A DNA stretch of 64,000 nt from contig JAFXGM010000024.1 of NCBI GenBank assembly GCA_017513195.1, positions 124,001 to 188,000 of the forward strand. The letters run 5' to 3'. Each line of letters starts with the position of its first letter. Within the stretch, counting starts at the first letter, position 1. Below, piece after piece: positions 48,306-54,394 of this stretch. Both the position numbers and the translations under genes were made by a program. Source of the stretch: Clostridia bacterium. Its GTDB lineage: Bacteria; Bacillota; Clostridia; Oscillospirales; Acutalibacteraceae. Under the pieces are notes generated by a model. The model was not told the origin of the DNA, made no database searches, and saw only the letters and a program-made list of their open reading frames with translations.

Positions 48306-49777
48306 TGGAATACATGTTTTTAAAAAGCGGTACTGATGTACGTGGTATTGCATCGAATTTAGGTGGCAAAGAGGTAGAGCTTACCGACAAGGCGGTTTAT
48401 GATATATCGGCTGCATTTGTAGCGTGGTGTGTTAACAAGCTTTCAAGACCTTCAAGTGAACTGCGTATTGCGCTTGGTCATGATTCACGCATTACTGCCG
48501 ATAGAATATGCGAGCAGGTAAAAAAGGCACTTATAAATGCGGGTGTAACTGTGCTAGACTGTGGCTTGGCTTCAACACCGGCAATGTTTATGACCACTGT
48601 TGATTTACATACCGATGCCGCTATACAGATTACCGCAAGTCATCATCCTTTTGATAGGAACGGACTAAAATTCTTTATAGGCACAGGCGGTCTTGAGGGC
48701 AGTGATATTGCCGAAGTATTAGAGATTGCTGAAAACGAAGAAGAGTGTATTAGTGAAAAACCGGGTGTTGTAGAAAAGGTTGATTATATGACCGATTATG
48801 CAGCCCGACTTCGTGATATGATTATTCGTGAGGTTGGCAAAGGCGATAAGCCGCTTAAAAACTACCACATAGTAGTTGATGCGGGTAACGGCGTTGGCGG
48901 ATTTTATGCAAATAATGTTTTATCACCTTTGGGTGCCGACATTTCGGGCAGTCAGTTTTTAGAGCCTGACGGCATGTTCCCCAATCATATACCAAATCCC
49001 GAAAACAAGCAGGCTATTGAGAGCATTTGTGAAGCGGTTAAAAACAGTAATGCCGACTTTGGCGTGATATTTGATACCGACGTAGACCGTGCGGGCTGTG
49101 TTGACGGAGACGGAAACGAGATAAACCGTAACAGACTTATAGCTATCGCTGCATATATTGCTTTAGGTGGTAAAAAGGGTGGTACAATAGTTACCGACTC
49201 GGTCACATCTGATGGACTTAAAAAGTATATAAACGAAGACTTAGGTGGTGTACACTACCGCTATCGTCGCGGATACAAAAATGTTATAAACAAGGCTATT
49301 GAACTTTGTGAGCAGGGAATTGATTGCCCGCTTGCTATTGAAACTTCGGGACATGCGGCGCTAAAAGAAAATTACTTCCTTGACGATGGCGCATATCTTG
49401 CGACCAAGATTATAATTGAGCTTGCAAAGGGTACCGATATTAAGGCACTGCTCTCTACAATGGAAATGCCTGCTGAGGAAGAAGAACACAGATTTAACAT
49501 AAAGGCTGACTATTTTAAGGTTTACGGTCAACGTGTTATAGATGAATTAGAAGAATTCGCAAAACAACAGCAGGGTTATGTTATTGCTGATGATAACCGT
49601 GAGGGGATAAGGGTATCAACACCAAACGGTTGGTTTTTGTTGCGTCTTAGTGTGCACGACCCTGTTATGCCGATGAACCTTGAAAGCAACAGGTTAGGTG
49701 GCATTGCTGTTATGAAAAAAGAACTAAAAGCGTTTTTTGAAGGCTTTAGTGAACTTGAAATGCCAAATGGATTTTAA
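48305..49777 (+). CDS. Phosphomannomutase/phosphoglucomutase
   Basis: 490 residues of the alpha-D-phosphohexomutase superfamily, which moves phosphate between C6 and C1 of hexoses. The active-site serine is in TASHHPFDRNGLKFF (Ser112), the metal-binding loop is DTDVDRAG near 256-263, and the sugar-binding ETSGHA and phosphate-binding NREGIRVS are present. HHP rather than the common HNP follows the serine. It would supply mannose-1-P or glucose-1-P for surface polysaccharides, including substrate for RmlA. Confidence 0.93.
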   Translation: MEYMFLKSGTDVRGIASNLGGKEVELTDKAVYDISAAFVAWCVNKLSRPSSELRIALGHDSRITADRICEQVKKALINAGVTVLDCGLASTPAMFMTTVDLHTDAAIQITASHHPFDRNGLKFFIGTGGLEGSDIAEVLEIAENEEECISEKPGVVEKVDYMTDYAARLRDMIIREVGKGDKPLKNYHIVVDAGNGVGGFYANNVLSPLGADISGSQFLEPDGMFPNHIPNPENKQAIESICEAVKNSNADFGVIFDTDVDRAGCVDGDGNEINRNRLIAIAAYIALGGKKGGTIVTDSVTSDGLKKYINEDLGGVHYRYRRGYKNVINKAIELCEQGIDCPLAIETSGHAALKENYFLDDGAYLATKIIIELAKGTDIKALLSTMEMPAEEEEHRFNIKADYFKVYGQRVIDELEEFAKQQQGYVIADDNREGIRVSTPNGWFLLRLSVHDPVMPMNLESNRLGGIAVMKKELKAFFEGFSELEMPNGF

Positions 49778-49787
49778 TTATTTTTTT

Positions 49788-49822
49788 AAAAAAAGAACCT
49801 GCAAAAGCAGGTTCTTTTTCTA
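49788..49822. terminator. Bidirectional terminator
   Basis: AAAAAGAACCTGC-AAAA-GCAGGTTCTTTTT between convergent units. Confidence 0.88.
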
Positions 49823-49824
49823 TT

Positions 49825-50607
49825 TTATAAAACTTTGCTTAAAAATTCTTTAAGTCTTGGACACTGTGGGTTTCCAAAAAGCTCTTCGGGAGTGCCTTCT
49901 TCGGCTATTACGCCTTCGTCAATAAATATTACTCGGTCGGCAACCTCACGTGCAAAGCCCATTTCGTGTGTAACAACAACCATTGTCATACCTTCGTGAG
50001 CAAGTTCCTTCATAAGCTCTAATACCTCGCCAACCATTTCAGGATCAAGTGCTGAGGTTGGCTCATCAAAGAGTATAACGTCGGGATTCATTGCCAAAGC
50101 TCTAACAATAGCTACACGTTGTTTTTGACCGCCAGATAGTTGAGAGGGGAAAACGTCAGCCTTTTCTTCAAGACCGATACGTTTAAGTAGCTTCATAGCA
50201 TTTTCTTTTGCTTCTGCCTTAATTTGTTTAGTAGACTTAATTTCTTCACCGTTTGGATTGCTAAAACGCAATTTGCGCATTCGCTTTTTCTCAACGTATA
50301 TAGGAGCTAACATGATATTATCTATAACTGTTTTGTTATTGAAAAGATTAAAGTGTTGGAAAACCATTCCCATTTTTTGACGGTGCACATTGATGTTTAC
50401 ACTCATATCGGCAATATCTACACCGTTAAAAATAATGCTACCGGAGGTTGGGTCTTCCATACAGTTAAGGCAACGCAAAAAGGTTGATTTACCGGAACCT
50501 GATGGGCCGAGAACAACAATTTTTTCGCCCTTATTGATAGTAACGTTAATGCCTTTTAAAACGTCAACGTTTTTAAAAGATTTTGTAAGATTAACAACTT
50601 CTATCAC
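49825..50607 (-). CDS. Polar amino-acid ABC transporter ATPase (GlnQ-like)
   Basis: 260 residues. Walker [10 protein letters not shown] (about 34-42), [16 protein letters not shown], and [14 protein letters not shown] are canonical. An insert of about 20 residues ([20 protein letters not shown]) lies after the ILMLAPIYV-like region and makes it longer than the usual 240. It drives uptake through the permease encoded just upstream, overlapping by 17 bases. Confidence 0.95.
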
Positions 50608-51301
50608 TTTTTCTCAAGCTCCTTTCTAAAAGTTTTACCAAACCGCTGATGAAAAGCACCAATACAATGTAAATGATTGCCATTACAAGATAGGGCACCA
50701 TAAATTCATAACTGTTAGAACCAATTCGGTTAAATGCAACATACAGGTCAAGCGCACCAACAAAGCTTACGACAGAGGTTTCTTTGATAAGGGTTATAAA
50801 CTCATTGCCGAGAGTAGGCAAAATATTTTTAACCGCTTGTGGAATTATGATTGAAAGCATAGTTTTCGAAAAAGAAAGACCAACAGCTCGGCCACCCTCC
50901 ATTTGACCGGGGTCAACCGACAAAATACCACCACGCATTATTTCTGATATGTATGCGCCGGAATTTAGTCCGAATACTATAATGGCGACAGTTACTGACG
51001 GAAGGTTGATTTCCATTAAAGGCAGGGCAACGTAGTAGGACAACAAAAGTTGTACCACCATTGGTGTTCCACGGAAAAATGCAACATAAAAAGTACATAT
51101 TCCGTTAAGAATTTTTGGCAATACCTTATACTTTGGTAACACGCGAACCGTTGCAATCAGTGTACCTATAACAATACCGATTATAAGACCGATTACTGCG
51201 ATTTTAAGGGTGTTTTCTAAACCGGTTAAAACCTCTTTGTAGCCGCCATTATCAATAAAAACTTCTATGAAACGTTCAATTTTTAAACCTAAATTTCCCA
51301 T
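50591..51301 (-). CDS. Polar amino-acid ABC transporter permease
   Basis: 236 residues with about five membrane segments. The HisMQ-type signature [19 protein letters not shown] is at the N-terminus, [15 protein letters not shown] follows, and the EAA-like loop [20 protein letters not shown] and GGRAVGLSF contacts the ATPase. It probably forms a homodimer. AAGGAT precedes the start. An intercistronic hairpin separates it from the binding protein gene. Confidence 0.95.
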
Positions 51302-51317
51302 AATAAATAATCCTTAT

Positions 51318-51357
51318 AACAACACAATACCCCACCTTGCGGTGAGGTTATTGTTGT
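51318..51357 (-). promoter_or_regulatory. Intercistronic hairpin between binding protein and permease genes
   Basis: ACAACAATAACCTCACC-GCAA-GGTGGGGTATTGTGTTGT on the minus strand pairs nearly throughout. No U-tract follows, so RNA stabilisation of the upstream message or partial attenuation is likely. Confidence 0.6.
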
Positions 51358-51371
51358 AAATTTAATATTGA

Positions 51372-52256
51372 TTAAGCTACAGCGTTGATAGCTTCAACAA
51401 TAAATGTTGCAGGGTCAGAGTCAATTACAACATATTTGATGTTGCCGTTGATAAGATCTTGTACTGCAAGAGAACCAGAGCCATAGCCCTTACCTTCTAC
51501 ATCGTAACCATCAAAGCCCCAGTCAGCATCACCCTGAACATAGAGGCTACCGGTTGTGCCGTTTTGGTAACCAATCTTTGTTGTCTTGTCTAATGATTTA
51601 AGGATTGCTTCAACATCTTCTGTTGTTTTGCAAGCATCGAATGTTGTATCGTCACCCTTAACGATAAGCTTTTGGTTTGCAGTGTAGTATGATGTTGAGA
51701 AGGTAACGTGCTCCTCACGCTTTTCGTTTACTGTAAGACCGGCCATAGCGATATCGCACTTGTGCTGACCCACTGACAAGCAAACAGCGTCAAATTCCAT
51801 ATCTTTAATAACGAGTTCTTTGCCGAGATAATCAGCAAGGAGCTTTGCGATTTCCATATCAATACCATAGAAGTTTTCGCCTACTTTGTACTCGAAAGGC
51901 TCAAACTGTGCGTTTGTAGCAACTACTAACTGATCCTTTGAAGCATCTTCTGCTGCTGACTTAACGGGAGTCTTTTCGCCGTCACCAAAGTATTTGTCGC
52001 AGATTTCATCAAATGTGCCGTCGTCCTGAATTTTCTTAACGAATTCATTAACCTTTGTTAAAAGTTCAGGTTGGTCTTTGTCAACACCAAAGGCATATTC
52101 TTCTTCGGTAAGGTTGATGTCGATTACCTTAACCTTAGCGGTAGCCTTAGCAGTGTCATCAGCGGTGCTGCTTGTTTCGGTGTCGCCGCAGCCAACGAAG
52201 CAGAAAAGCATACAAAGTGCTAAAGCGGCTGCCAAAATTTTCTTTAGATTTTTCAT
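51372..52256 (-). CDS. Amino-acid-binding lipoprotein, circularly permuted SBP family 3
   Basis: 294 residues. Lipoprotein signal with FVGC and lipidated Cys23. Residues 42-91 (KVIDINLTEEEYAFGVDKDQ, PELLTKVNEFVKKIQDDGTF, DEICDKYF) match what is normally the C-terminal end of GlnH/FliY-like proteins. After a linker (92-107) the usual N-terminal start follows at 108 (DQLVVATNAQFEPFEY, then GIDMEIAKLLADYLG, FDAVCLSVGQHKCDIAMAGL), and the protein ends at VVIDSDPATFIVEAINAVA, where others continue. The order is therefore rotated. It should still bind a polar amino acid and feed the permease downstream. GAGG ribosome site and extended promoter upstream. Confidence 0.9.
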   Translation of the reverse strand: MKNLKKILAAALALCMLFCFVGCGDTETSSTADDTAKATAKVKVIDINLTEEEYAFGVDKDQPELLTKVNEFVKKIQDDGTFDEICDKYFGDGEKTPVKSAAEDASKDQLVVATNAQFEPFEYKVGENFYGIDMEIAKLLADYLGKELVIKDMEFDAVCLSVGQHKCDIAMAGLTVNEKREEHVTFSTSYYTANQKLIVKGDDTTFDACKTTEDVEAILKSLDKTTKIGYQNGTTGSLYVQGDADWGFDGYDVEGKGYGSGSLAVQDLINGNIKYVVIDSDPATFIVEAINAVA

Positions 52257-52322
52257 TTTGTTTACCTCATTTCAAGATTTTAATTTAATTACAATGTTAT
52301 GTAACTTTTTTAGGATGAACCG

Positions 52323-52351
52323 ATTTTAGCATACTAAAGTGGTTTTGTCAA
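52323..52351 (-). promoter_or_regulatory. Promoter of the amino-acid transporter operon
   Basis: On the minus strand TTGACA (52351-52346), 17-bp spacer, TAAAAT (52328-52323) with an upstream TG (extended -10). Confidence 0.82.
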
Positions 52352-52392
52352 GTGAAAATGCATAAATATTTTAAAGTTTTGCAATTTTATAA

Positions 52393-52443
52393 AAAATATG
52401 CAAAAAATAATGCATATTTTCGTTTTTAACACAAAAATATGCA
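52393..52443. repeat. Three alternating copies of a decamer
   Basis: AAAATATGCA at 52393-52402, its reverse complement TGCATATTTT at 52411-52420, and AAAATATGCA again at 52434-52443, with a related AAAATGCATA at about 52355. The first pair can also form a hairpin with a T-rich end that may terminate the DUF4363 transcript. Confidence 0.6.
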
Positions 52444-52450
52444 TATAGGT

Positions 52451-52804
52451 TTAATAAAAACTGTGCAAACCGAATTTTTGTTCCGCCTTAATTAGAACTA
52501 AAACACTTTCAATGTTTTTATAAACGGCGTTTAATTCGAGTGAAGTGTTGTCCGTGGAGGCAACGGTTAGTTGACCGATATAAATTGAAATTTTATCTAA
52601 AAATCCGTGATTTACAAAAAGGGACATATTTTCTTTTTGTTCTTGCCATTTGTTTTCGAGTTGGGTGCCCGTGATTTTTTTATTACGAAACTGTTCGATG
52701 TCGTTAAGTGTTTTGTTACAAGCGTTTTCGACATATATATGTGCCCAAAAGCAAATTATAATCACCAATACAAAAATTATTGTGGCAGGTATTAGTCTTT
52801 TCAT
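52451..52804 (-). CDS. DUF4363 family protein
   Basis: 117 residues with one N-terminal membrane segment (about 5-24, TIIFVLVIIICFWAHIYVEN) and an outside helical part. Members are found beside DUF421 genes in Clostridia, as here, with a four-base overlap. Function unknown; a partner role in a sporulation- or envelope-related membrane complex is inferred only. Confidence 0.82.
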   Translation of the reverse strand: MKRLIPATIIFVLVIIICFWAHIYVENACNKTLNDIEQFRNKKITGTQLENKWQEQKENMSLFVNHGFLDKISIYIGQLTVASTDNTSLELNAVYKNIESVLVLIKAEQKFGLHSFY

Positions 52805-53481
52805 TTTTTGACACCGCCTTTTTTTATTATTGTGTGGTTGCCGTCACGGTCAAGCGTCATTAAAAATACGTCTTTTACGCTGTCACATTGATGCTTTAAA
52901 ATTTTATTTAACTTTTGTTTGGTTATTTCAAGTGCTTTAAGAGATTCGTAAACGATTTTTCCATCGCTTATAACAGGTAGAGGTAGTTTGCTGTCGGGTA
53001 GATTTAATTTTGCATCTTTTACCGAAATGGGTTGAGCGTCTTTTTTAAGCAGTACACTTAAATTACCGTTGACCTCTAAAACTGCAAAGGCGACATCTTC
53101 AATATTGAATACATCTTGTCCACGAAGCTGTTCAATAAGGTCAACCACAGTCATACGAACGTTACGCATGGCGTGCTGGTCGATAACACCGTTTTTAATT
53201 ATAACAACCGATTGACCGTTTAATAGTTTCCTTACGAAAAAACTTTTCATAGCAAGAATAGATATTATTATTTCAAGAAAAACTAAAACAAAAATTGCCG
53301 CAAGGCCTATGGACATTGGTTGCTCTGTGTCTTGCAAAGGTATTGCTGCAATTTCTGAAATTAGTAACGTTATTACAAGTTCGTTAGGCTGCATATCACC
53401 GATTTGGCGCTTGCCCATAAGTCGTATTGCTACCGTTACTGTGACGTATAGTATAAACGTTCTTATTACCGTAGAAATCAT
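52801..53481 (-). CDS. DUF421 membrane protein, YetF-like
   Basis: 226 residues from the ATG at 53481 behind GGTGAT; the frame extends to 53556 but without a ribosome site. Three N-terminal membrane segments are followed by the conserved GKRQIGDMQPNELVITLLIS, IIKNGVIDQHAMRNVRMTV, DLIEQLRGQDVFNIEDVAFA and AVLEVNGNLSVL blocks of the YetF C-terminal domain. The family is linked with spore envelope and membrane processes, without an assigned reaction. Confidence 0.9.
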   Translation of the reverse strand: MISTVIRTFILYVTVTVAIRLMGKRQIGDMQPNELVITLLISEIAAIPLQDTEQPMSIGLAAIFVLVFLEIIISILAMKSFFVRKLLNGQSVVIIKNGVIDQHAMRNVRMTVVDLIEQLRGQDVFNIEDVAFAVLEVNGNLSVLLKKDAQPISVKDAKLNLPDSKLPLPVISDGKIVYESLKALEITKQKLNKILKHQCDSVKDVFLMTLDRDGNHTIIKKGGVKK

Positions 53482-53516
53482 TAATAAATCACCAAGTGTA
53501 GTATTTGCTTTTTTTC

Positions 53517-53545
53517 TTGCATTATTATTGATGTAATGATATAAT
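53517..53545 (+). promoter_or_regulatory. Promoter of the polysaccharide export operon
   Basis: TTGCAT (53517-53522), 17-bp spacer, TATAAT (53540-53545). A perfect inverted repeat ACTTTAA-TG-TTAAAGT at 53563-53578 lies in the short leader just before the ribosome site. Confidence 0.65.
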
Positions 53546-53590
53546 AAACATACCAATATATTACTTTAATGTTAAAGTGAGGAAATGTGT

Positions 53591-54394
53591 GTGTCAAAAG
53601 ATACTTTAAATAAAGCGAACTTTTTTTCTGATATGAAAAAGTTTATGCCGCTACTTAAAAATTTGGTATCAAAAGATTTTAAAATAAAATATCGTCGCTC
53701 GGTGCTTGGTGTAGCATGGAGTGTGCTTAATCCACTTTTTACAATGTTGGTAATTACCACGGTGTTTGGCAAATTACTTAAAATTGAAGTAGATAACTTT
53801 GCTACCTACTATATAGTTGGTTTTGCAATATGGAACTTTTTCTCTGAGGCAACATCAAGCTCGCTTAGTTCTATTTTAAGCTCGGCGGCGCTTATAAAAA
53901 AAGTGTATATTCCCAAGTATATATTCCCACTTGAAAAGTGTCTGTTTTCGCTTGTGAACTTTTTCTTTACACTTATAGCGGTCGTAATTGTTATGCTGTT
54001 CCAAGGTTTTGTGCCAAGCATTACAACTATATTGTTCCCGATACCTGTTATTTATTGTTTTGTTTTTGTATGTGGTGTAAGCCTGTTTTTAAGTGCTGCT
54101 ACGGTGTACTTTAGAGATATACAGCACCTTTATGGCGTTTTGCTTACTATTCTTATGTATCTTACTCCCATAATTTATCCGTTGGAAATACTTAAAGATT
54201 ACAAGCTTGTTTTAAGAATAGTTGAGCTTAATCCAATTACTCATTACGTTGAGTACTTTAGAGGTTTGGTTATGTATAATCATATTCCGGGACTTAAGGA
54301 AAATCTTATTTGCGCCGGTATGGCTATAGGCGTATTTTTGATTGGTGCGCTTGTATTTAAAAAGGCGCAACGCAAGTTTATTCTTCATATATAA
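53591..54394 (+). CDS. Polysaccharide ABC-2 exporter permease (TagG/Wzm-like)
   Basis: 267 residues from GTG 53591, seven bases after AGGA; the ATG at 53585 is only one base from that site. About six membrane segments. The family core KDFKIKYRRSVLGVAWSVLN, PLFTMLVITTVFG, LSSAALIKKVYIPKYIFPLE and ELNPITHYVEYFRGL matches teichoic acid, O-antigen or capsule exporters. Works with the ATPase downstream (15-base gap). Confidence 0.94.
   Translation: MSKDTLNKANFFSDMKKFMPLLKNLVSKDFKIKYRRSVLGVAWSVLNPLFTMLVITTVFGKLLKIEVDNFATYYIVGFAIWNFFSEATSSSLSSILSSAALIKKVYIPKYIFPLEKCLFSLVNFFFTLIAVVIVMLFQGFVPSITTILFPIPVIYCFVFVCGVSLFLSAATVYFRDIQHLYGVLLTILMYLTPIIYPLEILKDYKLVLRIVELNPITHYVEYFRGLVMYNHIPGLKENLICAGMAIGVFLIGALVFKKAQRKFILHI

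Follow-up and report, generated by a model that had tools for sequence, protein, structure and literature searches.

The window, a 64,000-nucleotide stretch of DNA from a Clostridia genome, carries on its reverse strand a gene for a permuted solute-binding lipoprotein of family 3 (51372..52256; 294 residues), followed by a permease gene (BPD_transp_1; 50591..51301) that forms its partner and by an ATPase gene of the same ABC importer (49825..50607), the latter two recognized by Pfam and by gene order in related loci. The ORF, coordinates and strand given for the first gene in the original prediction are correct. Gene order was compared in 80 named loci, which are the best 80 of 561 relatives and thus selected for likeness. 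The permease gene came next in 78 of these 80 loci and the ATPase gene followed it in 76; the two loci lacking the permease were one at a contig end (L095) and one with no permease within about 5 kb downstream (L118), and three of the four ATPase misses were contig ends. This genetic link to a permease and an ATPase is what family 3 calls for.

The gap between the binding-protein and permease genes holds a stem-loop (51329..51348, reverse strand; z -3.33 for the interval 51296-51376). Within 79 type A loci examined (type A being the segment order described below), 56 of the 67 gaps of at least 25 bases fold better than mononucleotide shuffles (z < -2), and the hairpin perhaps sets the ratio of the proteins. 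Upstream of the binding-protein gene lies a promoter-like TTGACA-17-TAAAAT (52323..52351, reverse strand), recognized by consensus match only. Farther upstream are an A+T-rich inverted repeat (52410-52444), terminator-like for the DUF4363 gene, and the adjacent DUF4363 and DUF421 (YetF) genes (52451-53556, reverse strand). Rfam, at gathering scores, gave no match across 49500-53700.

Segment order of the binding protein

To place the segments, we used the lobe limits of E. coli GlnH given in the accessible part of PMC7400645 (large lobe, here lobe 1, 5-84 and 186-224; small lobe, here lobe 2, 90-180; hinge 85-89 and 181-185), with which those in the accessible part of PMC13229503 agree. The protein begins with a lipoprotein signal peptide and a lipid-accepting Cys23 (residues 1-23; 52188..52256), whose lipobox, FVGC, is read from the sequence and whose cysteine is kept in 76/76 aligned rows; a spacer follows. 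In the alignment, residues 42-49 (52110..52133) correspond to the final lobe-2 strand of GlnH (173-180), which is N-terminal here, and residues 50-54 (52095..52109) to hinge strand 2 (GlnH 181-185). The C-terminal part of lobe 1 (GlnH 186-222) follows as residues 55-91 (51984..52094), placed by PDB match and alignment. A 17-residue linker joining the old C- and N-termini, delimited by the 76-row alignment, occupies residues 92-108 (51933..51983), as the original prediction had proposed. The chain continues with the N-terminal part of lobe 1 (GlnH 4-84) as residues 109-189 (51690..51932), where N115, F118, F155, G173, T175 and R180 are on the ligand side, then with hinge strand 1 (GlnH 85-89) as residues 190-194 (51675..51689), and closes with lobe 2 up to its last helix (residues 195-294; 51375..51674), carrying Q231, T234, T235 and D279 and forming the new C-terminus. 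All these features are on the reverse strand, and we call this order (C-segment, linker, N-segment, lobe 2) type A.

The translation bears out the sequence marks on which the original prediction was built: LTEEEYAFGVDKDQPELL (residues 49-66) and DDGTFDEICDKYF (78-90) place the C-terminal family-3 segment at the front, the usual first segment QLVVATNAQFEPFEY begins only at residue 109, and the protein ends at VVIDSDPATFIVEAINAVA before the stop. Its assignment of residues 42-91 to the C-terminal segment stands with one refinement: in the GlnH alignment residues 42-49 match the strand that closes lobe 2, and the N-terminal segment therefore begins in that lobe before passing through hinge 2 into lobe 1.

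Profile and structure searches gave the same picture. Pfam SBP_bac_3 matches the ORF in two stretches (E 4.2e-32), the family-3 model (PF00497) scores 111.1 bits against a curated cut-off of 26.4, and a profile search of the genome placed the end of SBP_bac_3 (97-131) at window positions 51984-52265, before the profile's beginning in the gene. The NCBIfam TIGR01096 and GlnH models likewise match in two stretches, and the score for the GlnH equivalog NF007029 (95.9 bits) is below its cut-off of 303. The sequence search of the PDB returned 83 distinct sequences passing E 0.001; the best solved relative, AncQR (4zv1), aligns in swapped order, with query 109-284 on 11-172 and 39-92 on 180-233, while many weaker matches among the best 60 of the 83 cover only one of the two pieces. 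The order native to family 3 is N-terminal part of lobe 1, lobe 2 and C-terminal part of lobe 1, and the order here is C-part, N-part and lobe 2. Judged by its sequence, this gut-bacterial gene encodes a naturally circularly permuted family-3 lipoprotein, and the ORF is a permuted variant of PF00497 rather than a regular member.

Mapped on GlnH with the limits from PMC7400645 (accessible part), the type A chain is opened in lobe 2 between about residues 172 and 173, before the last strand of that lobe. Both hinge strands are uncut and the old lobe-1 termini are joined; the loss of one hinge strand by rotation was considered and was dropped on this mapping. Both native termini lie in lobe 1, which agrees with the earlier statement that they share a lobe. 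The suggestion that the rotation alters membrane tethering gains support from the new termini in lobe 2, the effect itself, like any on docking, being a prediction; the lipid anchor, separated from K43 by 6-30 residues in the aligned rows, would now be on lobe 2 rather than lobe 1.

The same rotation in other genomes

Rotated proteins of this kind are common in the source family, and other rotations exist (see below), neither of which the original prediction foresaw. When 200 genomes of this family were searched at the protein level (E 0.001), 187 gave some match and 34 (own genome included) matched 255 or more of the 294 residues at 51-100% identity. The order C-segment, N-segment, lobe 2 was found in 30/30 loci examined from these 34 genomes (the locus check leaves out G109, G153, G062 and G094), and likewise in 80/80 of the named loci, again the best 80 of 561, a few of which are near-duplicates (e.g., L078 and L079). 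Three of the named carriers bear strain names in their records and are not labelled as MAGs (Acetivibrio mesophilus N2K1, Faecalicatena contorta ET52 and Eubacterium ruminantium FB3002). The same order was seen in 16/16 type A-like loci examined (L187-L194, L207-L214) from a 391-genome sample of the class that was queried with type B (see below), and a phylum-wide sample of 398 genomes had two full-length type A proteins among the matches listed (the window's own and that of G421). The window's genome holds one other family-3 locus by Pfam, in native order (L001; G000:C10:10860-11501); the protein search gave six matches there, the window's own being the sole one among the matches listed.

The permuted order, for which the original prediction advised a search in related genomes, recurs in these loci, and sequence and relatives together uphold the circular permutation. 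As the window sits in a 47-contig draft assembly, one might suspect that the apparent rotation of an ordinary binding protein stems from a frameshift, an assembly error or a truncated gene, but the recurrence of the order in many genomes, the three strain-named ones included, excludes the frameshift that had been named as an alternative. Furthermore, exactly 12 residues follow P282 in 69/76 aligned rows, a shared ending, and the permease starts 70 bases downstream of the ORF, so that we give an artefact of this kind practically no weight.

The linker bears on a different alternative, a domain-swapped dimer in which each chain would have its lobe 1 completed by residues 42-91 of its partner. 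A 17-residue linker might permit either closure; however, its length is tightly kept (17 residues in 73/76 aligned rows), as for a fixed connection, which is an argument rather than a test, and we regard the swapped dimer as improbable.

Other cut points, tandem arrays and the number of origins

Two further rotations were found among the relatives. In type B the order is lobe 2, C-segment, N-segment; the cut follows the first lobe-2 strand, at about GlnH 96-105 as judged from row L039. This order was present in 19/19 family-sample loci examined (from 23 type B-like family genomes listed, with G192, G130, G157 and G111 left out) and in the 22/22 best class-sample loci (L165-L186), with G020 common to both lists; it was fused to the permease in 4/19 family loci (510-546 aa) and 3/22 of the best class loci. 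Type C is opened in the middle of lobe 2, at about GlnH 129/130 in rows L204 and L223, and occurs in 10/19 genomes of one family (8 complete copies and 2 truncated at the ends of contigs), with a further copy, L204, in another family; a permease adjoins 8/8 complete type C loci in that one family. Types A, B and C have in common that the old lobe-1 termini are joined by a linker. All three cut points fall in lobe 2, in searches that start from the C-N junction and so favour lobe-2 cuts and under-detect lobe-1 cuts.

Arrays of binding units also stand ahead of a permease, with three units in L197 (G640) and two each in L205 (G333) and L196 (G851), the last being a protein of 1151 aa that includes the ATPase too. 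Whether L195, L196, L197, L199, L201 and L205 consist of rotated units or of native-order units whose end pieces close up is ambiguous: in L197 Pfam's best stretch follows the native order, and some segments of L195, L199 and L201 were undetected. L206 is a native-order tandem. Separately, a 619-aa ORF (L202, G777) joins a sugar-type (type I)-like region to a type B rotated domain, as read from its sequence.

For the trees, which are quick searches, domains of the binding proteins were first rearranged to native order and identical ORFs of class-sample loci were merged. The 120-row binding-protein tree took 31 of 120 distinct type A ORFs and 28 of 37 single type B ORFs and was made without L202 and the type C copies cut by contig ends (L221 and L224); it needed 14 label changes for five groups. 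A 98-row set was obtained by removing 22 rows (tandem units, L001 twice, L200, L206 twice, L045 and L164), and a 94-row permease set was without L001, L226 and ten type A rows. A 45-row set, free of tandem units, was chosen after seeing the 120-row tree, and a 44-locus permease set comprised the loci of these rows, no permease being found for L159.

On these selected rows, a single clade of all permuted forms was rejected by the binding-protein tree (p 1.6e-4, 45 rows) and by the permease tree (p 3.2e-5, 44 of the same loci), and the same held for a single type B clade (p 1.4e-53 and p 1.7e-6, respectively, on the same 45 and 44 selected rows). The permease, which is untouched by the rotation, thus gives a tree that agrees with that of the binding protein. 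Types A and B taken together as one clade were also rejected (p 2e-58, 45 selected rows). Type A as a single clade was not rejected with p 0.17 (45-row binding-protein set), 0.367 (44-locus permease set) and 0.432 (94-row permease set), and had p 0.0295 on the 98-row binding-protein set. Two origins of type A were not established by these four tests, three of which do not reject the single clade. A second group with type A order (L187-L194) lies among type B and native-order proteins, apart from the group of the window.

The finding of the same rotation and two others among the relatives suggests that rotation evolved more than once, and repeated permutation would be the simplest reading, with types B and C probably having arisen independently; recombination between binding proteins could have scattered the labels on the tree. 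A history with one ancient permutation that then spread by recombination, with returns to native order, would draw on the failure of three of four tests to reject type A as one clade, on the inability of label changes to separate gain from loss and on the well-supported branches of the 98-row tree, which force at most one change for A, B or N. It is opposed by the rejection of an all-permuted clade on both trees and by the three different cut points, and we consider it unlikely as an explanation of all permuted forms, though not negligible.

A possible route to repeated permutation is offered by the 460-residue GlnPQ structure 6h30, on which query residues 54-282 align with chain positions 187-395 in one unrotated stretch. 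We read this stretch as crossing the joint between SBD1 and SBD2. The structure aligns in this way with both type A and type B, and is the only match whose best stretch spans the C-N joint among the best 60 PDB matches per query. A tandem of two native domains contains each rotated order as a contiguous stretch. The unrotated alignment of the GlnPQ tandem points to a tandem duplication, or a fusion of two binding domains, with both ends then trimmed off, as the most likely origin of type A. For the broader proposal, that Clostridia and other classes of the phylum have undergone several independent permutations with at least three cuts, all in lobe 2, that the tether (a lipid or a fused permease) thereby shifts from lobe 1 to lobe 2 and that permease-fused tandem arrays are the intermediates, we see about even chances.

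Proposed function and comparison with known systems

Ligand-side positions were compared in the same rows as the 120-row tree. Contacts of GlnH named in the accessible part of PMC7400645 are Gly68, Thr70, Arg75, Asp10, Ala67, Asp157 and Gly119, and the equivalents of Thr70, Arg75 and Asp157 are T175, R180 and D279. R180, T175, D279, F118 and Q231 are each kept in 30/30 type A rows besides the window's own. The arginine equivalent to Arg75 is kept in 34/34 type B, 9/9 type C and 15/15 tandem rows, and the aspartate equivalent to Asp157 in 33/34 type B rows (with one gap), 9/9 type C rows and 10/15 tandem rows. Residues expected to contact the ligand are thus present on both lobes, as in family 3. 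Four positions are replaced relative to GlnH (Asp10 by N115, Lys115 by Q231, Gly119 by T235 and His156 by I278), and for this reason the substrate need not be glutamine.

We are highly confident in the reading as a whole, in which a circularly permuted family-3 lipoprotein with an ordinary fold would serve an amino-acid importer together with the permease and the ATPase. The protein would adopt the two-lobed flytrap fold with both hinge strands uncut, and an amino acid would be bound between the lobes through the equivalents of GlnH Thr70 and Arg75 on lobe 1 and Asp157 on lobe 2. The bound amino acid would then be passed to the permease encoded next door, which is probably a homodimer, since there is a single permease gene, driven by the neighbouring ATPase; the rotation's predicted consequence would be the placing of the lipid anchor on lobe 2. 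The transport role is drawn from gene order and the conserved residues. These same observations make it very unlikely that transport has been lost and that the protein is now a sensor or a scavenging decoy, even though family-3 domains have other roles and the NCBIfam list includes a kinase and MltF.

In the accessible parts of the open-licence literature, the only natural permutation of a substrate-binding protein that we found is TpMglB-2, a type I sugar-binding protein, and we found no report of a natural permutation in family 3, the other papers listed seeming, from their titles and the start of their abstracts, to concern engineered proteins or different subjects. Since domain models match in pieces, the rotation probably escapes routine annotation. 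A collection of relatives in native order and in three rotated ones, most of them next to a permease gene, would make it possible to test how permutations arise by duplication and trimming, if chain connectivity plays a part in flytrap closure, and if docking on the permease depends on which lobe is tethered.

Compared with E. coli GlnH and family 3 (PF00497, type II fold) in general, the window's protein has segments, hinge and several ligand-side positions that align (56 identities in 223 aligned positions of the rotated alignment) and is likewise the partner of a BPD_transp_1 permease, whereas its order is rotated and its termini are in lobe 2. TpMglB-2 (Tp0684) of Treponema pallidum, termed "Type Ic", is similarly a natural circularly permuted lipoprotein of an ABC importer, and its authors propose tethering as a possible reason for the permutation; unlike the window's protein, it has a type I (cluster B) sugar-binding fold that gained a fourth crossover, belongs to another family and is cut elsewhere (PMC4990184, accessible part). 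The predicted fold here is not the type I, cluster B one, the Pfam matches being SBP_bac_3 and a related glutamate-receptor domain and the PDB matches among the best 60 of 83 being family-3 proteins and their kin. On sequence alone, then, the window's protein would embody the same idea as TpMglB-2 without being a member of "Type Ic". The tandem domains of GlnPQ (6h30; L206 in our samples) differ in that each domain is in native order, and are alike in that SBD1-SBD2 holds the rotated order contiguously, which makes them a model for its origin.
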